42,791 bases of DNA from an uncultured Bacteroidales bacterium (GTDB lineage Bacteria > Bacteroidota > Bacteroidia > Bacteroidales > F082): contig CAMYYB010000018.1 of NCBI GenBank assembly GCA_947303335.1, positions 1 to 42,791 of the forward strand, read 5' to 3'. The notes under the pieces were generated by a model. The model had not been told where the DNA came from. It searched no databases and was given only the letters and a program-made list of their open reading frames with translations. A program made the position numbers and the translations under genes. Below, one piece after another: positions 6,594 through 30,538 of this stretch. How positions within the stretch are numbered: the first letter of the stretch is position 1; each line of letters opens with the position of its first letter.

Positions 6594-9146
6594 TCAGAAC
6601 GCATTCAGCAAGACGATTTTCTCCGTCACTACGCTGCCGCCCAGCATTTGGAGGGTGTAGACTCCTGCGGGCAGGCGGCTCACGTCGATGGTGCGTTGCC
6701 CCTCGACGGTGAAGAACATCACCAACTGGCCCTGCATGTTGAGCATCATCACGCTGACGGCACCTTTACTATAATCGGTGCGGAGGGTGAACTGTCCCTT
6801 AGCGGGATTGGGATAGACTTCCGCATGGAAGGCAGGTTCGGCATGGGCTTCGTGCACGTTCACCAACAGGTTCTCATCGTTGCTGAAGGTGACCACTTTG
6901 CCCGAGACGCGCAACACCGGGTTGTCGGGGGCGGCACATTCCTCGCAAGTCACGCCATCGATGCAGTCGGGGTGGTTGGGGTGACAGAGGTCGAGATAGG
7001 TCGGGTCGAACTGGTAGAACAGCTCGGCTTCGCCAGCGGTGAGGTACTCCGAAAGGTCAAAGTCCCATACCATTCCGATGCTACCCGGGCACCAGCCGCT
7101 GCGGCTGTAGGTCCAGGTGCCGTTCTGCGGTTGGCAGCCAGCGGGGTTGGGGGTGCAGGCACGCCACAGGTGTTGGTCGTATTGGCTTTCTCCGTTCACG
7201 AAGATATGGTGTGTCGCCTCGTAGAACTCGGCGGCATTGCCCGTGTTGTAGCAGTGGTTGGTGCCGCTGCTCCAGTTGTGTCCGGTGGTGGTCATCTTGA
7301 GTTTGGCGGCCTGAGCCTTGTCGCTGAATTTGTAGTTCACTGCGGGTACGGGCTGCTGGTTGGCATAATCGCCGAAAGCGTAGGTGCCAAACCAAATCTC
7401 GTCTATATCGGTATAGAGGTATTCAGGGGTGCCTTCGGTAAAGCTGAATATCATTGAGGGATTGGAGCCGCTGCCGTTCCAGGTCTCCAAGTAATACTCC
7501 ATTTCCAACAGACCTTGCAGCAAGGAGGTATAGTCAGTCACGTCCACATCATCCTGGCATTCCACGCCGAAGGGGGTGATGTAGCGGAACAACTCAACCC
7601 ACTCGCCGCGATAGTTGCGCACTTTGACGCCGCCCACACGGTCGTAGGTGTCGCAGTCGCCATCCACGCAGTTGTAGTCAAAATGCGCCATGATATTGTT
7701 GAACGTACCCACATGCGTGGGGAATACATACTCGCCCTTGGCGCTGTGATGGGTCGGGTCGCAGACGAGGTCGCCGTTTATGGTCACCACATCCAAACGG
7801 TTTTCAATCTGTTTGGTCACTTCAAAGCGGTTGCTGAAAGTCGTCGTCTTGTCGCCGCTCTGTGTCACCCTGACGGTCATATCGAAGTCGCCATAGTCAT
7901 TGGGTTGCCAGAAGCCGTAGTAATAGCCGTTGTCGGGGTTTTTGGGGTAGTCGGTCTGCAACTCAATCTCTTCCCCGTTGATGCTCGCCGTGATGTTGGT
8001 GAACTTAATCACTTCGGGATGCTCGATATAGGCTGATACGACAATCAAAACCGGATGGATATCATTCATAAAGACCTTGGTGCCTTCGTAGGGGCGGCGA
8101 ATCTTCACCTCAGGTTCGTAGATATACGGGTCGACGACTTCGAAAGTCTTCACCACATCGGGGGCGGGCAGCCAGCTGGCGTTGCCGGCTTGGGTGGCCT
8201 TGAACTTGACGATGCCAGTCTCGCCGGTTAAGGTCAGCACGCTGCCATCAATCGTTGCGGGACCCTCTATTAATTCGAAGGAGACGGGGAGTCCTGAAGA
8301 AGCGGTGGCCTCAAGGGTAATCGGGTCGTTGAAGATGAGTTGGTTCGGAACATCGTCCATTTCGATAAGTTGGGCGTTGCCGTCGGGCTGCTGTCGCACC
8401 AGCAGGTTGTCGAAGCCACCTGTGCCGCCTTGCGAGTGGAAGAAGACACCGTCCCACACGTGATAGTCTTTCTTGTCGCCGCTGCCTGGAGTGAGGTTCA
8501 TGCAGACGTTGGTACAGCCTGCCATCTGAATCCATTCGCCTTCGCAGCCGGGCTTCACAAACACGGTGACGGCTCCTGCGCCGTCGTAGGCGGTGAAGTC
8601 AAACGACATCTTGTAACGGGTCCAGCCGCCTTGCTCGTAGTCGAAGGGGATATTGCTGCCATCGGGCAGGCACACTTTAGCGTGTCCGCTGTCGCCTTGG
8701 CTCTTGATGAAGAGGTAGACACCACCGTCGGTGTCGGTCATTCCGGGCAAGATGTGTCCGTCGCCGTCGGCATCGAGGCCCACACCGAAGAACGAGCCCC
8801 ACCAAGTACGGTTCATGTCGATTTCAAGGTCCATGATGCCGCCTTGCTGGAAACTGAAGTTGAAGTTGTCGGAGGCTTTGCGGGTGGCGGTGCGGCCTAC
8901 TCCTGAGCCGCCATAGGGGTACCAGACGGCCATCGTCTCGTCAGGAGCCATGTGGGAGTCGCAAACGTAGTTGACGTCGAAGTCTTGGGACGAGGCGGCG
9001 GTCTGGTAATGGGTCATCCAGCCATCCTGTCCGTGGAGGTTTTGCGAGCCTTCGTTGAGGCTGTTGAAGTCGTAGAGGTATTCCACCTGAGCGCTGAGCG
9101 AGACAGCCAAGAGGAACAAAGCGGTAAGTAAAGATAGTTTTTTCAT
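6594..9146 (-). CDS. T9SS-secreted PNGase F-like protein
   Basis: 850 residues from the ATG at 9144-9146; the longer frame to 9245 would run past the promoter. Signal peptide MKKLSLLTALFLLAVSLSAQ. Residues ~25-250 look like a jelly-roll (LamG-like) domain (FNSLNEG, NLHGQDGW). Residues ~265-340 look like an Ig-like domain. Residues ~445-735 match both domains of peptide:N-glycosidase F: DCDTYDRVGG (the Asp-Arg site near 501), ELFRYITPFG, LLEMEYYLETWNG, then GHNWSSG, NAAEFYEATHHIFVNG and GTWTYSRSGWCPGS. PNGase F releases N-glycans from glycoproteins. Residues ~775-850 form a T9SS type A sorting domain (VYPNPAKGQFTL ... LPAGVYTLQM), so it should be exported to the cell surface. Whether all catalytic acids are kept needs an alignment. 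Confidence 0.8.
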   Translation of the reverse strand: MKKLSLLTALFLLAVSLSAQVEYLYDFNSLNEGSQNLHGQDGWMTHYQTAASSQDFDVNYVCDSHMAPDETMAVWYPYGGSGVGRTATRKASDNFNFSFQQGGIMDLEIDMNRTWWGSFFGVGLDADGDGHILPGMTDTDGGVYLFIKSQGDSGHAKVCLPDGSNIPFDYEQGGWTRYKMSFDFTAYDGAGAVTVFVKPGCEGEWIQMAGCTNVCMNLTPGSGDKKDYHVWDGVFFHSQGGTGGFDNLLVRQQPDGNAQLIEMDDVPNQLIFNDPITLEATASSGLPVSFELIEGPATIDGSVLTLTGETGIVKFKATQAGNASWLPAPDVVKTFEVVDPYIYEPEVKIRRPYEGTKVFMNDIHPVLIVVSAYIEHPEVIKFTNITASINGEEIELQTDYPKNPDNGYYYGFWQPNDYGDFDMTVRVTQSGDKTTTFSNRFEVTKQIENRLDVVTINGDLVCDPTHHSAKGEYVFPTHVGTFNNIMAHFDYNCVDGDCDTYDRVGGVKVRNYRGEWVELFRYITPFGVECQDDVDVTDYTSLLQGLLEMEYYLETWNGSGSNPSMIFSFTEGTPEYLYTDIDEIWFGTYAFGDYANQQPVPAVNYKFSDKAQAAKLKMTTTGHNWSSGTNHCYNTGNAAEFYEATHHIFVNGESQYDQHLWRACTPNPAGCQPQNGTWTYSRSGWCPGSIGMVWDFDLSEYLTAGEAELFYQFDPTYLDLCHPNHPDCIDGVTCEECAAPDNPVLRVSGKVVTFSNDENLLVNVHEAHAEPAFHAEVYPNPAKGQFTLRTDYSKGAVSVMMLNMQGQLVMFFTVEGQRTIDVSRLPAGVYTLQMLGGSVVTEKIVLLNAF

Positions 9147-9169
9147 GGCTTTAAATGTGAATTTGGGTA

Positions 9170-9177
9170 CAAAAATA
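9170..9177 (-). promoter_or_regulatory. promoter of the PNGase F-like gene
   Basis: Minus-strand TATTTTTG fits TAnnTTTG. A TTTG sits about 20 bases upstream as a -33 element. It lies 24 bases before the start codon. Confidence 0.65.
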
Positions 9178-9218
9178 AGAATTTCAGCAATATCAAAGGC
9201 TGTTTTCGAAAAAAACGC

Positions 9219-9226
9219 TATTTTTG
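9219..9226 (+). promoter_or_regulatory. promoter of the DUF4249-like lipoprotein gene
   Basis: TATTTTTG followed by CAG, a standard Bacteroidetes -7 box, 27 bases before the ATG at 9253. It sits back to back with the minus-strand promoter at 9170-9177. Confidence 0.7.
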
Positions 9227-9252
9227 CAGATTCTAAAAATAGCATTTTTACG

Positions 9253-21647: not shown

Positions 21648-23318
21648 ATGTCGAAACGCGTACTCATTGTTGTTTTGGTTGTTGTTGCTTTCACTTGCAC
21701 TTGTTGTCATCGAAAAGCAAAGCAACCGTATACCCCCACGTTGCCATCCTTGTGGATTACCATGGCCCAAAATCAATATAATTCCATATATGGAGACACC
21801 GAAAACAAAGAGGCGGCAGAAGCTTTACTTACGGATGCTCATGGCGATACGTTGTATCAGGGTGCACTAGCTCATATCAAAACCAGAGGCAATACTACAT
21901 TTAAAGAAGCCAAAAAGCCTTTTACCATCAAGTTTCCCAAAAAGCAGTGTTTTTTGGGACTAGAACCAGGCAAATCCTTTGTGCTGTTGGCGAACGCCTT
22001 AGATGAGAGCCATATCCGCAATGCCATTGGTTTGGATTTGGCTCGAATAATGGGGATACCGGCACCGCGCTACGCCTATCTGTCCCTTTATATCAACAAC
22101 AGCTATATAGGACTATATCAAATAACTAACAAAGTGGATGTAGGCAAGCACGCTCTCGACATTACGGACTTGGACAAACTAAACCAACAGGTCAATCCGA
22201 AACCCTTAGATGAATATGAATGGTTTGGCTTCGGGAGAGAAAAAGAGTTGATACATCGTAAAGGGGTTTTGCTCGACAACAATCCTGACGATATCACCGG
22301 CGGTTATTTGTTGGACATTACTGGCCCTGTTCAGCAGTACTTCAAAAGCACCAGTGGATTTGTCTCGACGGCTAAGGACAATGTGCGCATTCGTTCTCCC
22401 AAGTACGCCTCTCCTCAAGAGGTGGACTATATTGTTGAACGTTACAATGAAATGCAAAGTGCAGTGATGGCTGCTGACGGCTTTCATCCCGAAACGGGCA
22501 GACATTATACGGAGTATCTTGATAGGGAATCCTTTGCCCGCTATTATCTGCTTAATGAAATCATGTTTAATCATGATGCCAATTGGGCAAGTTTTATGCT
22601 GTATAAAGATCGAGACGCTAACGATCCCAAATTTCATGCCGGTCCTGCCTGGGATTATGATAGAACGCTTGACAACCCTAGATTTACGGATGTCCTCAAT
22701 ACAAAAGAATATAGCAATGAGATGTTTGCCAGTGTAAAAGCAGACAGAATAGGCATGATCTGTTCGGGAGGTTTGCTTTATTATTTGTGCCAACATGAAG
22801 ATTTCCAACAGGCGGTCAGAGATTGTTACTTGAACTGTATTGGACCCAAGTGTCATGCCTATTTGGAAGCTCATCTTATCGACAGCCTGGCCACCTTGCT
22901 GGCGCAGGAAGCAGATCGAGACTATGAGAAAAACGAGGGCCGTTATAGTAAAACCTATGAGGTTGCGGTGAACAGAGCGACGGCTTATTTACGTGACAGA
23001 ATAGCGTTTCTCGACTGGTATTGTGCCTCAACACAGGAAGAACAAGTCACTATTACGGCTCTATGGAGAGGGATGAGAACTCGTAAGTTTTATTATCCTA
23101 CCGAAGAAGCTATCGAGGTACCCCATTTAGCAAAGTCGTACTACAATCACGATCCTGTCTATGAACTGTATTATGCAGGTACAGATTCCCTTGTTCCCGA
23201 GGGCATCATATTTCATGAGCCCCAGACGCTGGAACTTCGGGGGAGGGAACCCACCAAACGTGAAGTACAAATACGTCGGGTCAAGAAAAAACTGGCAAAG
23301 ATAGGCATTCGTTTCTGA
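21648..23318 (+). CDS. CotH kinase-like lipoprotein
   Basis: 556 residues from ATG 21648; the frame extends back into rocD and its terminator, so that start is rejected. The N-terminus is a hydrophobic segment and lipobox (VVVAFTCTCC). The CotH family pattern is clear: ALAHIKTRGNTTFKEAKKPF, LLANALDESHIRNAIGLDLA, YLSLYINNSYIGLYQITNKV, then the catalytic region LLNEIMFNHDANWASFMLYK and HAGPAWDYDRTLDN. CotH proteins are atypical kinases that phosphorylate secreted proteins; the spore-coat role does not apply here. The last 38 bases overlap the 3' end of the convergent dus gene. Confidence 0.85.
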   Translation: MSKRVLIVVLVVVAFTCTCCHRKAKQPYTPTLPSLWITMAQNQYNSIYGDTENKEAAEALLTDAHGDTLYQGALAHIKTRGNTTFKEAKKPFTIKFPKKQCFLGLEPGKSFVLLANALDESHIRNAIGLDLARIMGIPAPRYAYLSLYINNSYIGLYQITNKVDVGKHALDITDLDKLNQQVNPKPLDEYEWFGFGREKELIHRKGVLLDNNPDDITGGYLLDITGPVQQYFKSTSGFVSTAKDNVRIRSPKYASPQEVDYIVERYNEMQSAVMAADGFHPETGRHYTEYLDRESFARYYLLNEIMFNHDANWASFMLYKDRDANDPKFHAGPAWDYDRTLDNPRFTDVLNTKEYSNEMFASVKADRIGMICSGGLLYYLCQHEDFQQAVRDCYLNCIGPKCHAYLEAHLIDSLATLLAQEADRDYEKNEGRYSKTYEVAVNRATAYLRDRIAFLDWYCASTQEEQVTITALWRGMRTRKFYYPTEEAIEVPHLAKSYYNHDPVYELYYAGTDSLVPEGIIFHEPQTLELRGREPTKREVQIRRVKKKLAKIGIRF

Positions 23319-24291: not shown

Positions 24292-25946
24292 TTCTTCTTT
24301 TTCTTAGTGGCTTTTTTGACAGGCTTGTTGTCGGCGCGGTTCCATTTGATGAGACTCACGGCTCCCCAAGTGAGGAGCAATACAAAAGTGAGATACATCG
24401 CAATACGGCTCAGATAGTCTCCGTGTTGGGCATAGAAGGTGACCTTGGTATTGGCCTTCAAGGTGGCTCGTATGGCATCAGGTTCCCAATAATGGGTGCG
24501 TTGCAACACGTCACCCCGTTGATTGATGAATCCCGAGCGTCCTGTGTTGGCTGAGCGGGCTATGCATCGTCGGTTCTCAATGGCTCTCAGCTTCGAGAAC
24601 TCGAAATGCTGGCGGTAGCCTGGCGTGTGTCCCCACCAGCCGTCGTTGGTAATGACGAAAATCAAGTCGGCTCCTTTCTTGCAGAACGAGCTGACATATT
24701 CTCCGAAAGCGCTCTCGTAACAGATGGCTGCGCCTATTTTGTGTTTGCCAAACGACATTACCTTCGCCTCGGGGTCAGTTTTCAGGGTACCCCGAGCGAT
24801 ACCCATGGTGATACTGTAGTTTTTCAGGAAGCCCATCCATTCGGGAATGGCTTCTACACCTGGGGTGAGCTGCGACTTGTTGCGGTGCTGCATCTTGACG
24901 GTGTCAATGAGCAAGGCCGAGTTGTGGCAGTAATAATAACGGTCGCTGTCGCCTATCTGGCGGGCAGGGAAGTCGTTTTCCATGCCACGGGGTACCCATT
25001 CGTAGGTGGTGCCACCAATGACAAAAGCCATCTGAGGATGCTTTTGGATATAGTCATGCAGGGTTTTGAGAGCTTGTACCTTTTCGGTCTCATGCAACCA
25101 AATGCCTTCCTGGATAGCCGACTCGCTGCTGACCACAAAACGAGTGTTCTCCGTCACCAAAGGCAACGAAAGGGCAATGTTGTTTTGGATGACTTGGTCG
25201 TAGAATTGGCTGTCGAACTGCTCGTTCCACGGGTCGCAGTTCTGCTGTACCACGATGACTTCCGTATCTTGGCCTTGGTCTTCGTAATGTGTATAAACGT
25301 TTTTGCTCACCAGAATGGGCAGGAATAGTACGAGCAATCCCACACCTGTATTAATTAATAGGTGTTTCGTCTCTCTCAATTTGAAATGAAGAATGGTATT
25401 AACAATGAGTATGTTGACCAAGAGAACCCAAAGCGTTCCGCCAGCCACTCCCGTGTATTCGTACCATTGTATCCATTCAGGACGTAAGCTGAACACGTTG
25501 CCCAAGTTAAGCCAAGGCCATTTGGCAGCCCAGAGGTAGGTGAGCCATTCGAAGGCCATCCAATAGGGAATAAGGAAGAAGTTGCCCCAAGGTTGGTTGC
25601 ACACCTTTTTCTTGGTAAGGTGGAACACATTGAACACGATGGTCATAAACAATGCGTTCAATATCCAAGCAGCGATGGCGGCAGGGGTGGCATTCCACAC
25701 CCACCAAGTGGTAGCCACGTTCCATACCAAAAAGGTCAGGAACGACAGCCAAAACAGTTTGCCTTTTTCGCCTTGTACGATACAGTCCTCAAGCAGCAGC
25801 AAGGGAACCCATCCGATGAATACCAGTGACGCTATGCCCCATGTAGGCCAAGCCGCTGTCAGCAGTCCAGCGCTCAACAAAGCCAGCAAGATTCTACGGC
25901 CTTTGCCGTCGGGTTGTGTCTTATGTCCTTTTCTCTTTGCTATCAT
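24288..25946 (-). CDS. lnt: apolipoprotein N-acyltransferase
   Basis: 552 residues. The enzyme adds the third acyl chain to lipoproteins at the inner membrane. The N-terminal ~210 residues hold six or so membrane segments (LLALLSAGLLTAAWPTWGIA; LFWLSFLTFLVWNVATTWWV and others). Then comes the nitrilase-fold domain with the catalytic Glu in VVSSESAIQEG, Lys in HRNKSQLTPGVE and Cys in GAAICYESAFGEY; FVITNDGWWG and RAIENRRCIARSANTG are also diagnostic. A last membrane helix is followed by a Lys-rich tail. ATGA overlap with dus shows co-transcription. The abundance of lipoproteins in this window fits a need for Lnt. Confidence 0.93.
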   Translation of the reverse strand: MIAKRKGHKTQPDGKGRRILLALLSAGLLTAAWPTWGIASLVFIGWVPLLLLEDCIVQGEKGKLFWLSFLTFLVWNVATTWWVWNATPAAIAAWILNALFMTIVFNVFHLTKKKVCNQPWGNFFLIPYWMAFEWLTYLWAAKWPWLNLGNVFSLRPEWIQWYEYTGVAGGTLWVLLVNILIVNTILHFKLRETKHLLINTGVGLLVLFLPILVSKNVYTHYEDQGQDTEVIVVQQNCDPWNEQFDSQFYDQVIQNNIALSLPLVTENTRFVVSSESAIQEGIWLHETEKVQALKTLHDYIQKHPQMAFVIGGTTYEWVPRGMENDFPARQIGDSDRYYYCHNSALLIDTVKMQHRNKSQLTPGVEAIPEWMGFLKNYSITMGIARGTLKTDPEAKVMSFGKHKIGAAICYESAFGEYVSSFCKKGADLIFVITNDGWWGHTPGYRQHFEFSKLRAIENRRCIARSANTGRSGFINQRGDVLQRTHYWEPDAIRATLKANTKVTFYAQHGDYLSRIAMYLTFVLLLTWGAVSLIKWNRADNKPVKKATKKKKK

Positions 25947-25963
25947 ATATCCAAAATTTTGTG

Positions 25964-25971
25964 CAAAGGTA
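25964..25971 (-). promoter_or_regulatory. promoter of lnt-dus
   Basis: Minus-strand TACCTTTG fits the Bacteroidetes -7 box and lies 18 bases before the lnt ATG. It is back to back with the promoter at 25993-26000. Confidence 0.65.
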
Positions 25972-25992
25972 CTGCTTTATCAATATAATTCT

Positions 25993-26000
25993 TATCTTTG
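25993..26000 (+). promoter_or_regulatory. promoter of the kinase-peptidase-PqqD-nucleotidyltransferase operon
   Basis: TATCTTTG followed by CA, 17 bases before the ATG at 26017. The two divergent -7 boxes are only 21 bases apart, so their -33 regions overlap and the two operons may compete. Confidence 0.7.
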
Positions 26001-26016
26001 CAAAAAATTTGATGTA

Positions 26017-26883
26017 ATGAAAAAAACTTATCAAGTTGCAGGTCATAAGTTCTCCGTCACGATGCCCGATGGCAATTCGCTTTGGAATGAAATGGGACAG
26101 TATGAGCCTTTTCTCTCCGATGAGTCGGGTCAGCATGTATTTGAGGTAACCTTGGATGACGAAATGCCTGATTTGGAGGGTTGGAATAAAGTAACAGAGG
26201 AGAAAAATCAATTTTTCCCGGTATTTGAGTTTTATGAGTGCAACGAGGGTTGGTTATGGTCATTATCGCAGGAAGATAATCTCGAAGCGAAAGCTTATAT
26301 GGTTTCCGATAAGGCATTTTCGAAAGCACGGTTGTGTTTTGTGGGCAAGTCAAGAGCGTTTTTGCATAATATGCTTTCATTTATGTTTGCGGCCTCAACG
26401 GCGAATAAGAACACACTGTTGCTTCATTCGTCGGTGACGCTTCACGGAGGCAAGGGTTATCTCTTTTTGGGGAAGAGTGGCACAGGGAAAAGCACCCATA
26501 GCCAATTGTGGATTAAGAATATTGAAGGTTGTGAGTTGCTCAATGACGACCATCCTGTCTTGAAAGTGGAAAACAATGGTACAGTATATGTCTATGGATC
26601 ACCTTGGAGCGGCAAGACACCTTGCTACCGTAACCTTAGTGCACCCGTAGGTGCTATCGTTGATTTGCATCAAGCTAAAAAGAACGCCATACGGCGTCAA
26701 ACGATTATCGAGGCATACGGGTCGGTTTACAAGTCATTGACAGGTACTAGGTTTGTTAGGGAGTGCGCAGATGGTTATCATGCTACTAATGAGCGTATTG
26801 TGACCACAGTGCCGTGCTATTCACTGGATTGTCTTCCAGACGCCGAAGCTGCTTGGCTTTGCTATAATACAGTTTCACGATGA
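26017..26883 (+). CDS. HprK/PEP-carboxykinase-like kinase
   Basis: 288 residues from ATG 26017; a longer frame would enter the lnt gene and its promoter. The HprK/PEPCK-like core has the P-loop YLFLGKSGTGKSTHSQLW (Walker A at ~152-159). A preceding His (LLLHSSVTL, ~137) and the Asp pair in LLNDDHPVL (~177-178) are the catalytic arrangement of HPr kinase-type proteins. SPWSGKTPCYRNL follows. The N-terminal ~120 residues are variable. HprK homologues in some lasso-peptide clusters phosphorylate a C-terminal Ser of the precursor (paeninodin type); others have unknown targets. It is the first gene of a four-gene operon with ATGA overlaps, so its partner is probably encoded there. Confidence 0.8.
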   Translation: MKKTYQVAGHKFSVTMPDGNSLWNEMGQYEPFLSDESGQHVFEVTLDDEMPDLEGWNKVTEEKNQFFPVFEFYECNEGWLWSLSQEDNLEAKAYMVSDKAFSKARLCFVGKSRAFLHNMLSFMFAASTANKNTLLLHSSVTLHGGKGYLFLGKSGTGKSTHSQLWIKNIEGCELLNDDHPVLKVENNGTVYVYGSPWSGKTPCYRNLSAPVGAIVDLHQAKKNAIRRQTIIEAYGSVYKSLTGTRFVRECADGYHATNERIVTTVPCYSLDCLPDAEAAWLCYNTVSR

Positions 26884-27326
26884 GTAAAACAGCTGTCCTT
26901 GAGGAGTTGTTACCGGATGAGTTGTCTGATATCCTTGCCCAAAGCGATGAGGGAGTTTTCCTGCACCCCAAGGGTAGGAGTATGTTGCCTTTTATTCGTG
27001 AAGGAGTAGACAAAGTGCGATTGGCTCGTGTTGAGGGACTAAGGAAAGGCGACATCGTATTGGCGTATTTCGATGGTAGGTATCTCTTACACCGTATTTA
27101 TGCCCTTGACGGAGAACGAATCACCTTGATGGGAGATGGCAACCTACAAGGAAAAGAGTATTGTACGAAAGCAGATGTGAAAGCCGTTGTGGAGGAAATC
27201 GTCACTCGAGAAGGCCGTGTCCGCCAACCTGGGAGAGCCTGGCTTTGGCGTAATACCTTGGGGTGTCGCAAATATCTACTGAAAGTGTATAGAAAATGGA
27301 ATAAATTAAAACACACAACAATATGA
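26880..27326 (+). CDS. soluble S26B/S24-like peptidase
   Basis: 148 residues. The motif HPKGRSMLPFIREG holds the nucleophile Ser (~34), LLHRIYALDG the general-base His (~71) and LMGDGN the conserved Asp (~86). This is the Ser-His layout of SipW/Sec11-type S26B peptidases, whereas bacterial LepB uses Ser-Lys. No membrane helix precedes the Ser, so the protein should stay in the cytoplasm. The C-terminal ~35 residues are basic. It overlaps both neighbours by four bases (ATGA). In this setting it may trim a peptide leader, or it may be a regulator of the S24 fold. The substrate is unknown. Confidence 0.75.
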   Translation: MSKTAVLEELLPDELSDILAQSDEGVFLHPKGRSMLPFIREGVDKVRLARVEGLRKGDIVLAYFDGRYLLHRIYALDGERITLMGDGNLQGKEYCTKADVKAVVEEIVTREGRVRQPGRAWLWRNTLGCRKYLLKVYRKWNKLKHTTI

Positions 27327-27592
27327 AAACTAAAAAAGGTTACATTCTTCGTTCTTTGGGTGATGAGTTTGTCCTTGTTTCCGAAGGTGCCGATGTGTTC
27401 TATACGGGGCGCATGGTATCCATGAACGAAAGTGCCGCTTTACTGTGGCGGGAAGTGGAAGGTAAGGATTTTGATTTGAAAGATATGGCTGATCTGTTGG
27501 TTGACCATTACGATATTAGCCGTGAGGTTGCCGAAAAAGATGCAGAGGCTTTGCTCCAAATCTGGAAAAACGCTGACATTATTGAAGAATAA
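27323..27592 (+). CDS. PqqD-like protein (possible RiPP recognition element)
   Basis: 89 residues of the PqqD family: an N-terminal three-strand part (YILRSLGDEFVLVSEGA), then MVSMNESAALLWREVEGKDF, then three helices (DMADLLVDHYDISREVAEKD; AEALLQIWKNADII). PqqD-fold domains bind the leader of ribosomally made peptides and hand it to modifying enzymes. The MNESAALLW block with small residue then Trp is typical. It is translationally coupled to the peptidase gene and lies four bases before the nucleotidyltransferase gene. In a cluster with no radical SAM partner, its likely client is the peptide at 28814. Confidence 0.85.
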   Translation: MKTKKGYILRSLGDEFVLVSEGADVFYTGRMVSMNESAALLWREVEGKDFDLKDMADLLVDHYDISREVAEKDAEALLQIWKNADIIEE

Positions 27593-27595
27593 GAT

Positions 27596-28702
27596 ATGAC
27601 CCTTGTTGAGTCACACTATTTTGCTCTTATGCGTGCTGCCTTATGGCAGCAACCTGTAGCCCTTGAGGGAAAGCCGGATTGGGAAGGCATTATGCGCGTT
27701 GCTCGGCATCACGCCACCGAAGTTCTTGTGGCTGATGTGGCTTCGCGTTTGACGGGCGACGCCAGACCTTCCGAGGAGATGCTCCGTCAGATGAAAAAAG
27801 CCATGTATGGCAATCTTATCAGTCAACAGGAGCTGAAACGGATACTCCTGAAGGCCATGAAGGCTTTAGAAACTCAGGGCATTGAGTTCGTGCTGCTCAA
27901 AGGTTTTGGCCTTGCGCGGCTCTATCCTAATCCCAGCTTGCGTCAATTTGGCGATATTGACCTTTTTGTGGGCTTGCAGCAGTACCATCAGGCTTGCATG
28001 GTGTTGCGTGGCCTTTCCGGGGGATACAACTGGGGTGGTGAGATTGAAGTTGGACGGCATTATAACATTGAGTTTGGACGGTTTCCCATGGAGGTTCACC
28101 GTATGAGTGCCGAGGTGAACGATGCCAAGGAACAGGCTGTGTATGCCGTCATCGAGCAAGATGGTTTGGTTGAACATCGACAAAACGTTGATTTCGGGGA
28201 TTGCAGTTTGCCTTTGCCCTCCAATGAGTTCATGGTGTTTTTTACTTTCTTTCATTTCTGGGATCATTTCATGACTTCAGGTGTGGGATGGCGTCAACTC
28301 TCAGATGTGGCTATGACTTTGCATTCCTATCATGGACAGCTTGATGTGGATAAGTTGCACGACTGGTTGGTCTCGATGCATCTTATGGGGCCTTGGCAGG
28401 CTTTTGGTGGACTCATGGAGACCTGTCTTGGGCTTCCTGTGGCTGAGATACCATTTTACAAGTCGATTTCCCGTTACCGTACCAAGCAAATCTATGACCG
28501 AATAATGGTGGACGGTAATTTTAGGCGGTTCAAACGCTACCGACAATTCCAACCTAAAGGCATCCTGATAAGAAAAATCTATGCTATTATTAGCGTTTTT
28601 CTTGATTTTTTTGGTTTGGTTGGTTTGTTTCCCAAGCATGCATTCCGGATGATGTCCACCACCCTGACAGAAAGCATCTCGAAAAATTTTCAAAAAAAGT
28701 GA
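27596..28702 (+). CDS. nucleotidyltransferase family protein (NTP_transf_5-like)
   Basis: 368 residues. A two-helix start is followed by GIEFVLLKGFGLARLYPNPS and LRQFGDIDLFV. The D-x-D pair in GDIDLF (near residue 120) with the upstream KG(x)ALA-like KGFGLA is the active site of Pol-beta-type nucleotidyltransferases of the NTP_transf_5 group. The C-terminal half is helical and ends in a hydrophobic segment near 330-350 (IYAIISVFLDFFGLVGLF) that may sit on or in the membrane. Relatives occur beside PqqD, HprK-like kinase and lasso-peptide genes and in capsule clusters. The substrate is unknown. It is the last gene of the operon. Confidence 0.8.
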   Translation: MTLVESHYFALMRAALWQQPVALEGKPDWEGIMRVARHHATEVLVADVASRLTGDARPSEEMLRQMKKAMYGNLISQQELKRILLKAMKALETQGIEFVLLKGFGLARLYPNPSLRQFGDIDLFVGLQQYHQACMVLRGLSGGYNWGGEIEVGRHYNIEFGRFPMEVHRMSAEVNDAKEQAVYAVIEQDGLVEHRQNVDFGDCSLPLPSNEFMVFFTFFHFWDHFMTSGVGWRQLSDVAMTLHSYHGQLDVDKLHDWLVSMHLMGPWQAFGGLMETCLGLPVAEIPFYKSISRYRTKQIYDRIMVDGNFRRFKRYRQFQPKGILIRKIYAIISVFLDFFGLVGLFPKHAFRMMSTTLTESISKNFQKK

Positions 28703-28732
28703 TTTTTTTTCGCGTCGTATGAATTAATTGCC

Positions 28733-28740
28733 TATTTTTG
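28733..28740 (+). promoter_or_regulatory. promoter of the short peptide gene
   Basis: TATTTTTG followed by CACC fits the Bacteroidetes -7 box. It gives the peptide (ATG at 28814) and the downstream lipoprotein a promoter of their own, with a leader of about 70 bases. Confidence 0.7.
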
Positions 28741-28813
28741 CACCGTGAAAAGTGTGTGAAAGAGACACAAAGTTCAAATAAACAAATAATTAATCATTAA
28801 AAACACAAACAAA

Positions 28814-28936
28814 ATGAAGAAATTAAACAATGTTTACGTTGCTCCCAAAGCAGAATTGGTCGAGCTTCTTGCTGAAAACGAAATCATGTCAAATCCTACT
28901 TCGTGGACAGGTACTCCCTCAACTCCTATTTCGTAA
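28814..28936 (+). CDS. 40-residue peptide, candidate modified precursor
   Basis: This short gene starts MKKLNNVYVAPKAELVEL and continues LAENEIMSNPT to the end SWTGTPSTPIS. The first ~25 residues look like a leader: a basic start, then amphipathic with an acidic face. The last ~15 are rich in Ser, Thr, Pro and Gly and end in Ser. The start has an A-rich context (AACAAAATG) typical of the group, and a strong promoter lies 73 bases upstream. It directly follows the kinase-peptidase-PqqD-nucleotidyltransferase operon. Similar short peptides of the YVAPKAEL type are common in Bacteroidales. A role as substrate of the cluster is inferred from position and composition, not shown. Confidence 0.65.
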   Translation: MKKLNNVYVAPKAELVELLAENEIMSNPTSWTGTPSTPIS

Positions 28937-29005
28937 TTTTTCGAAGAAGAAGTAGCGTCTTTAAACAAATGACAATTTAAACTAGAAAAATTAAAACGGA
29001 GAAAA

Positions 29006-30091
29006 ATGAATAGAATCGCAAAATTAATGTGCCTCATTGCTTTAGTGGCTTTGGTAGGTACGTCTTGTAAAAAACAAGAGGCAAAGCTTACGTTTACCGC
29101 TACCATGGGTGATGGTGAGTGGAAGACTGAAGACAAGCTTTACCTCGCCGATAATAAAAAGATGTGGTTTGAAATTGGTGATCAAGTAATGCTTTGCTAC
29201 GTTGATTATGATGATCCTACACAATCCACATCTGGTCGTTTCGAGGCTTTGGAAGAAGGTATGTCAACTACGTTTGGTGCTGTTGGTGGTACCCCTACTT
29301 TGGTTAACCCTACTTTGGTTAACGGTAAATCAGATGCTTTCTTTGCTTACTATCCTGGTGAAGAAGGTATGTGTTCTTTCGATTTTGAAGGGACTTCTGG
29401 TGAAATTTACCATCCAGAGACCTATTATAATTATGGTTGCTTTAAATTGGCTCCGGTGCAGGAATATCGTACTGTTGCTAATGGTACAGCCGTTCCTAAA
29501 AAAGCTTTATTTGCTGCTGCCAAAGACGAAACTGCTTCTACTTGGCAAGGTGCCCATTTCAGCTTTACTCCTATTAGTGGTCTGTTGAGACTGAAGTTCT
29601 ATGGTTCTGGGGTTACTGTGAAAAGCGTTACGGTTGAAGATCCCAGTCTTAATCTGGTTGGTGATGTGTATTTGTGCATCGACAAAGTGGATCCTTTCGA
29701 GATGGAACAGATGCTGCTTAATTATAACCCCGACAGTCAAATCTATCTTAATACGTTGGCTGCGTATTGCAAAAAAATCGGTTACCGTGTTCCGGGTCAC
29801 AATGAGGGCGAAAATCATGATGTTGATTTGAATCCTGACCTGGGCCATAAATTGACCCTTAACTGCGTCAATGCTGACTATCCAAGTGGTGTTGCAATCG
29901 GTACGTCATCAAGTACAGCTACTGAATTTGTACTGGGTGTGCGCCCCGCTGCCTTCTATAAAGGTATGATTCTCGATGTTGTTTACGAGAAAGGTGGTTC
30001 GGAACACACCTTACACATTGACGCATCTGGTCAGAACCTTATGATTAAGCCTGGTACCATTAAGAAGATTTCTGCTATTCAGCTTAACTAA
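29006..30091 (+). CDS. fimbrillin-like surface lipoprotein
   Basis: 361 residues with a lipoprotein signal (MNRIAKLMCLIALVALVGTSC, lipid Cys ~21). The mature part is strand-rich. The segment GLLRLKFYGSGVTVKSVTVE followed by LVGDVYL is typical of fimbrillin/Mfa-like proteins of Bacteroidetes, which are cell-surface or pilus subunits. A 15-base tandem duplication at 29294-29323 gives PTLVNPTLVN. It follows the 40-residue peptide by 69 bases with no terminator between, so the two probably share a transcript. Confidence 0.7.
   Translation: MNRIAKLMCLIALVALVGTSCKKQEAKLTFTATMGDGEWKTEDKLYLADNKKMWFEIGDQVMLCYVDYDDPTQSTSGRFEALEEGMSTTFGAVGGTPTLVNPTLVNGKSDAFFAYYPGEEGMCSFDFEGTSGEIYHPETYYNYGCFKLAPVQEYRTVANGTAVPKKALFAAAKDETASTWQGAHFSFTPISGLLRLKFYGSGVTVKSVTVEDPSLNLVGDVYLCIDKVDPFEMEQMLLNYNPDSQIYLNTLAAYCKKIGYRVPGHNEGENHDVDLNPDLGHKLTLNCVNADYPSGVAIGTSSSTATEFVLGVRPAAFYKGMILDVVYEKGGSEHTLHIDASGQNLMIKPGTIKKISAIQLN
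29294..29323 (+). repeat. 15-base tandem duplication in the lipoprotein gene
   Basis: CCTACTTTGGTTAAC occurs twice in a row and encodes PTLVN twice. The copies are identical, so the event is recent. Confidence 0.9.
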
Positions 30092-30137
30092 TGACAATAA
30101 TTAAGCATTGATAGAGCACATCTCTCTTAAAACAATC

Positions 30138-30171
30138 AAAAAAGCGCTTCCCTATTCGGAGGCGCTTTTTT
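30138..30171 (+). terminator. intrinsic terminator after the lipoprotein gene
   Basis: AAAAAAGCGC (30138-30147) pairs with GCGCTTTTTT (30162-30171) around TTCC...GGAG. It ends the transcript of the peptide and lipoprotein genes. Confidence 0.85.
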
Positions 30172-30228
30172 GTGTCATGTGGTGGGGATGGGCAATGATT
30201 CTCCAAGTACGTCCAATCACTAAGGCAA

Positions 30229-30264
30229 CAAAAAAAAGCCAAACTTGCAAGTTTGGCCTTTTTT
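30229..30264. terminator. terminator downstream of tRNA-Phe
   Basis: GGCCAAACTT pairs with AAGTTTGGCC-like bases (core GCCAAACTTGCAAGTTTGGC, 30238-30257) with A-run and T-run on the two sides. On the minus strand it lies just past the tRNA 3' end. Confidence 0.8.
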
Positions 30265-30267
30265 GGA

Positions 30268-30343
<76 letters not shown>

Positions 30344-30538
30344 TCCGTTTGAGGCCGCAAAGATAAGACATTTTTCTTTACGGACAAGAAATTTTCTTCA
30401 AAAAAATCATTCTTTTTTATTTTTAGAAATATTTTGTTTTGAAAATCAGTGAGATATAATTTTATGCCAGCGAGCTGTGCAATAAAAATTTGCGCAACGA
30501 GTTAAAAAATCGGATATTTGCAGGCTCAAATGGGAATA

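Follow-up and report, generated by a model that had tools for sequence, protein, structure and literature searches.

The closest described relatives of the locus reported here belong to the linear polyphosphorylated peptides (LPPs), published in May 2026 (Popov et al., 2026; PMC13381572). An LPP locus combines a SipW-like peptidase (LppS), a recognition element for ribosomally synthesized and post-translationally modified peptides (RiPP recognition element, RRE; LppB), a kinase (LppK), LppN, an MsbA-like exporter (LppD) and a YxxP precursor. LppK adds several phosphates to S3, LppS together with LppB takes off the leader, and N33 and D70 of LppB hold leader residues P-13 and Y-16. The kinase, RRE and protease roles were established by deletion, mass spectrometry and in vitro cleavage; deletion of lppN was without effect in the heterologous host, and the function of LPPs is unknown according to their authors. 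The class is described as 'restricted to the Bacillota', yet the peptidase cluster is 'predominantly' from Bacillota, and non-Bacillota members may therefore already sit in the published LPP data. Here we describe a 42,791-nucleotide stretch of DNA from an uncultured Bacteroidales bacterium (contig CAMYYB010000018.1; hereafter the window) that encodes an HprK-like kinase, an S26-type protease, a PqqD-type RRE and an NTP_transf_5 protein, followed by a 40-residue peptide and a lipoprotein. We consider it probable that this locus serves RiPP-type peptide maturation of the LPP kind, in the Bacteroidota, with precursors in trans that are paired with lipoproteins. The likeliest substrates of its enzyme set are short peptides, which would be trimmed and phosphorylated. 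In open-licence papers, including a Bacteroidales RiPP survey (PMC10352776), PMC13289728 and PMC7533575, the accessible text holds no report of this enzyme set in Bacteroidota.

The window and the related loci L004-L013 have in common with LPP loci a SpI-like/SipW-like peptidase, a discrete RRE, an HprK-like kinase and an NTP transferase. A preliminary description of the window had delimited the five open reading frames correctly, all on the forward strand (Table 1). It had also joined the four enzyme genes by ATGA overlaps; these occur at the HprK/S26 and S26/PqqD junctions, whereas a 3-bp gap separates PqqD from the NTP transferase gene. The lipoprotein gene, 69 bp past the peptide gene, was not part of that description. 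Searching relatives for the gene order, as had been proposed, recovered lnt / HprK-S26-PqqD-NTP in 10 of 13 loci compared, the remaining three being without the NTP transferase gene, and a peptide gene plus a lipoprotein-type gene downstream in all nine loci whose contig extends far enough. Such conservation of gene order is more than chance. The peptide had further been called separately promoted, a claim that stands at the level of a promoter-like motif: in each of ten loci (the window and L005-L013), TATTTTTG lies 74-93 bp 5' of the peptide ATG. In the same ten loci, TAT[CT]TTTG lies 24-26 bp 5' of the kinase ATG, and we take TAnnTTTG to be the Bacteroidetes -7 element.

Table 1. Features of the maturation locus in the window.
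Feature	Coordinates	Strand	Remarks
HprK-like kinase gene	26017..26883	+	PEPCK/HprK-type, LppK/PadeK-like; H137, K158, D177, D178
Soluble S26-type (S24/S26, SipW/LppS-like) serine protease, presumed leader peptidase	26880..27326	+	S34, H71, GDGN D86
Stand-alone PqqD-type RRE	27323..27592	+	PF05402, E 5e-16; N35, D73
NTP_transf_5 protein (LppN/PsmN-like)	27596..28702	+	PF14907, E 2e-40; GDIDL D120, D122, E166
Putative 40-aa precursor peptide	28814..28936	+	YVAP (YxxP) leader motif; M25 = Y+17, S26 = Y+18; variable tail; Ser40 (Y+32) at end
Surface-type lipoprotein, fast-evolving partner gene	29006..30091	+	VGTSCKK lipobox by eye; 69 bp 3' of peptide gene
Promoter-like element TATCTTTG 5' of kinase gene	25993..26000	+	TAT[CT]TTTG pattern
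Promoter-like element TATTTTTG 5' of peptide gene	28733..28740	+	motif conserved among loci

Pfam bore out the earlier identification of the PqqD and NTP_transf_5 proteins. The protease passed the PF00717 cut-off barely (24.6 versus 23.3 bits), and the kinase passed no curated cut-off, its similarity to the NCBIfam model HprK_rel_A (TIGR04352) being weak (E 2.4e-4; 20.3 bits, far below the 200-bit cut-off). HprK is related to the PEPCK (phosphoenolpyruvate carboxykinase) fold. The structure model of the kinase has this fold; all 50 fold matches listed are PEPCKs, with HprK not among them, and no conclusion is drawn from this. Sequence searches of the PDB returned Walker-motif matches and one PEPCK (E 0.05) for the kinase, TfuB1 (E 9.5e-5) for PqqD, and no match for the NTP_transf_5 protein. 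Kinase residues H137, K158, D177 and D178, protease residues Ser34 and His71, and PqqD residues N35 and D73 are invariant in 12 of 12, as are D120, D122 and E166 of the NTP_transf_5 protein, presumably its catalytic acids, in nine of nine; protease D86 is likewise invariant. In LppS the triad is S29/H68/D93, against S34, H71 and D86 in the window protease, where the acid follows the His by 15 positions instead of 25 (PMC13381572). LppB N33 and D70 would correspond to PqqD N35 and D73, an assignment based on residue spacing and on the lasso RRE 9x90_B of the PDB, LppB itself not being aligned. In the chain 9x90_B, Gly and Gln align with N35 and D73, and PbaB1 has Gly and Gln at those of N33 and D70 (PMC13381572).

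A profile built from ten peptides matched 923 proteins at E <= 10, and sequence features were taken from the best 120 of the 923, a set biased toward the query. Among these, 115 start with MKKMNK, all 120 contain YxxP, and strong conservation extends over the first 25 residues (..YEAP.AE..........[LFV]M). Their tails, 11-26 residues long, are distinct in all 120 peptides and, over 1889 residues in total, free of Lys, Arg and Cys. A short YxxP precursor (35-200 residues in LPPs) with a conserved N-terminus and a variable C-terminus is thus common to the LPP and Bacteroidota systems. Nine of the peptides were compared with NCBIfam, and no model matched.

Occurrence of these peptides is tied to the enzymes. 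In a sample of 149 genomes of the family, the HprK-like kinase was found in 24, and the NTP_transf_5 protein in 28; a narrow peptide profile matched in 20, each of which also has the kinase. Across all 99 genomes of the genus, a broader peptide profile (A6) gave 105 matches in 35 genomes, the window peptide among them. The PqqD profile (A5), used as marker of the enzyme set, was found in 37 of the 99, in 34 of them at E <= 3e-29, the other three (G093, G117 and G121) having a divergent PqqD; peptides are present in 34 of 34 genomes with this matching PqqD versus 1 of 65 others (Fisher's test on 34/3/1/61, p 7e-22, kinship not controlled). The single exception, G098, has its peptide on a contig that also carries the NTP transferase gene and ends inside it. 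Eight genomes of the genus without a matching set gave no match to the broad peptide profile. Only 31 of the 105 peptides are linked to the operon (1228-1352 bp 3' of PqqD); the other 74 are unlinked, with one to seven in each of 27 genomes, G098 among them. The window's own genome likewise holds a second precursor elsewhere (G000:C7:4184-4321). A linked copy is missing in 3 of the 34 genomes: in G557, the contig with PqqD is 4337 bp long and stops after the NTP transferase gene, and in G090 and G134 the operon reads NTP-HprK-S26-PqqD-ABC exporter and the detected peptides lie in trans. That the peptide might lie far away in relatives had been named beforehand as an argument against the proposal. 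In part it does, yet the unlinked peptides are confined, G098 apart, to genomes with a matching PqqD, and we therefore read them as precursors in trans. As a separate observation, L128, L131 and L132 carry a 503-residue protein with PqqD-HprK-S26 in genomes without a detected window-type peptide, perhaps reflecting another substrate.

All 74 unlinked matches were read, and 71 are unique with G098 excluded. In these the leader columns are conserved: YxxP is present in 71 of 71, Ser at Y+19 in 67 and Cys at Y+17 in 61. The tails vary, a few motif types recurring among them, and 62 have Trp or Phe among the last four residues. One unlinked precursor, used as a single query, had no match in a plasmid collection.

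Most unlinked precursors adjoin a lipoprotein-type gene. A same-strand gene of at least 80 residues follows within 600 bp after 71 of the 74 unlinked peptides, and a lipobox pattern occurs in 55 of these 71, equal to 55 of the 62 that have at least 100 residues; G098 is part of both counts, though its next gene is doubtful. Among background genes of L102-L125 the pattern occurs in 12 of 138. The test is a regular expression that misses some lipoproteins evident by eye, including the window's own. Of 17 linked loci tried, 13 had a next open reading frame, 10 of these with the pattern. The gap between peptide and lipoprotein gene is -25 to 70 bp in 53 of the 55 pairs, and over the sequence covered the lipoproteins have at least 270 residues in 52. 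A domain scan of eight found fn3, Lcl_C or a weak Mfa_like_1 in three, and none or weak matches in the others; the window lipoprotein has no Pfam match, and its relatives are 23-36% identical in nine loci where HprK is 54-59% identical. With leader distance accounted for, tail distance still tracks lipoprotein distance (54 pairs; partial r 0.48, Mantel p 0.001), also among distant lipoproteins (partial r 0.33, p 0.001), and duplication of peptide-lipoprotein pairs as a unit may explain part of this correlation. In loci with tails of the GNSTE[GS]V type (L114, L211, L215-L217, L238), a membrane-type protein of 86-101 residues precedes or replaces the lipoprotein.

Self-immunity lipoproteins are known for lantibiotics, and the variable tails, the lipoprotein-type gene directly downstream and the covariation of the two would suit an antibacterial RiPP accompanied by an immunity lipoprotein. 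We regard this as unlikely: the lipoproteins are large and some are adhesin-like, the tails of the 120 peptides are free of Lys and Arg, and a close relative of the L112-type exporter (E <= 1e-40, 51-100% identity) occurs in only 4 of the 34 enzyme-bearing genomes, other exporters being possible.

Beyond the genus, a kinase profile was positive in 13 of 395 genomes across the phylum (the window's own included), representing 7 of 171 genera. L156 and L157, from another Bacteroidota order, read S26-PqqD-NTP-ABC transporter-HprK, the transporter being composed of PF00664 and PF00005, and continue into polysaccharide-export genes (PF02563, GNVR/AAA_31); this is an LPP set outside the Bacillota. 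In L158, which contains PqqD-NTP-HprK with no S26 seen alongside, a YxxP peptide is encoded 3.6 kb further along; the 728-residue protein after it shows a lipobox on inspection by eye and matches nothing in Pfam. Relatives of this peptide number 213 at E <= 0.1 and include one named from Prevotella sp. CAG:1185; YxxP lies near the start in 116 of the best 120 of the 213. On one strand, L159 carries a peptide, a lipoprotein-type open reading frame (582 residues from a later start; Mfa_like_1 at 23.5 bits, below cut-off), PqqD and HprK. L014-L016 have HprK-S26-PqqD without the NTP transferase gene and without a neighbouring peptide, and their genomes gave only weak matches to the broad peptide profile (best E 0.078; at E <= 1, one in G149, none in G150 and five in G151). 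Two side observations concern such loci and genomes. In L014, L015, L016 and L155 (Prevotella-type genomes and G545), the HprK-S26-PqqD set, without the NTP transferase gene, lies 3' of genes for an rpoD-type sigma factor and for a secreted-looking protein of 149-204 residues, both named by eye. Separately, L163:2704-13553 (G151, the genome of L016) has three YxxP peptides, two of them identical, alternating with very large surface-type open reading frames.

The proximity of polysaccharide-export genes in L156-L158, with a glycosyltransferase in L156, raises the alternative that the substrate of the enzymes is an exopolysaccharide or some other non-peptide compound and that the peptides are unrelated small genes. 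This is very improbable: no glycosyltransferase was found among the window neighbours scanned, dispersed YxxP peptides accompany PqqD in every one of the 34 genomes, and Bacillota LPP loci also sit in capsule loci, yet act on peptides (PMC13381572). Slightly less credible still, the short open reading frames could be regulatory attenuators upstream of lipoprotein genes, as the short gap between the two would allow; their conserved amino-acid leader with an RRE-type motif, their association with the PqqD enzymes and their 120 distinct tails argue otherwise.

The preliminary description had proposed a cyclase-free relative of the paeninodin lasso cluster that makes a phosphorylated linear peptide. 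Co-occurrence, leader motif and catalytic residues agree with this proposal, and it is supported: a phosphorylated linear peptide was demonstrated in Bacillota with the same enzyme set (PMC13381572). The paeninodin and pseudomycoidin clusters (PMC9266682) have in common with the window a PqqD-type B1 protein, an HprK-like kinase with His-Lys-Asp-Asp and the nucleotidyltransferase-like PsmN, which in pseudomycoidin is linked to hexose addition; the window system differs in its protease fold and in having YxxP where paeninodin has WxxP. Despite these common parts, a lasso cluster with its cyclase and B2 protease located elsewhere is the least plausible alternative, given a protease of another fold in the operon, N35/D73 in place of the Gly of paeninodin RREs, no B2 protease (PF13471) in 24 partly incomplete genomes (21 of the 34 enzyme-bearing ones and those of L014-L016; control positive in Bacteroides ihuae), and no Asn-synthetase-type cyclase (PF00733) among the window neighbours scanned, a genome-wide search for which was not made.

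Several points weigh against assignment to the LPP kind. The biochemical support for LPPs comes from Bacillota, and the Bacteroidota system is so far known from sequence. The leaders, YxxPxVLxHQxIxFETxxS in LPPs and YxxPx[AV]E..I..QG[VI]L[CM]xS in Bacteroidota, differ past YxxPx[V/A], and LppS D93 is without a certain counterpart in window-type proteases. Ser stands at Y+19 in only 65 of the 120 operon-type peptides examined; in the window's own peptide Y+19 is not Ser, and Ser occurs at Y+18 and at the C-terminus (Y+32). The LPP core includes an MsbA-like exporter, and none is found among the window operon genes; ABC exporters are present in L112, L126, L127, L156 and L157, with the L112-type rare as noted above. 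The co-occurrence test takes no account of kinship, and many genomes are incomplete. Finally, enzymes without a short peptide, which the preliminary description had listed as contrary evidence, were seen in remote relatives only, namely L014-L016 and the genomes G093, G117 and G121, whose PqqD, HprK and S26 are divergent and in which no peptide was detected. The systems also differ in host phylum and in that most precursors of the Bacteroidota are unlinked and mostly adjoin lipoprotein-type genes.

If the locus is of the LPP kind, PqqD would bind the YxxP leader of the short peptides, and the HprK-like kinase would phosphorylate the Ser just past it, at Y+19 in most unlinked precursors; in the window peptide, S26 and the C-terminal S40 are candidates. 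That phosphate may in turn receive a nucleotide or sugar from the NTP_transf_5 protein, a step that is uncertain. After phosphorylation the S26 protease would cleave around the junction motif [VI]L[CMT]x[S] to free a short, linear core in which Gly, Ser, Thr and acidic residues are abundant. A single enzyme set would serve the linked precursor, and in 26 of the 34 genomes it would serve one to seven scattered ones as well; the lipoprotein encoded beside most of the scattered precursors probably binds, displays or senses the product at the surface.

Other features lie nearby. An Rfam scan of 25900-30400 gave nothing above gathering score, including any RNA element at the peptide 5' region, except a tRNA gene at 30271-30343 on the reverse strand, downstream of the lipoprotein gene (RF00005, 67 bits). 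A CotH-kinase-family protein is encoded a few kb upstream of the locus (21654-23318; PF08757, E 3e-36), and a protein with a Peptide-N-glycosidase F C-terminal domain and a secretion-system sorting tail (PF09113, PF18962) at 6594-9245 on the reverse strand.

More broadly, and tentatively enough that we would sooner doubt it than assert it, the peptides of the window genus, the L158-type peptides of Prevotella and those of L159 and L163 may form one phylum-wide YxxP class, matured in trans by a single kinase/protease/RRE set. Each phosphorylated core might then serve the adjoining surface lipoprotein as its dedicated ligand, tip or sensor element, together a modular peptide-lipoprotein code that has diversified throughout the genome. 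For LPPs, described in 2026 as limited to Bacillota and without an assigned role, the Bacteroidota set would extend the class to rumen- and gut-type bacteria. It suggests a reading for short Bacteroidales proteins that match no NCBIfam model (nine tested) and offers hundreds of candidate natural substrates among the 923 profile matches. The many precursors in trans, together with their recurring lipoprotein neighbour, may provide a first handle on function.

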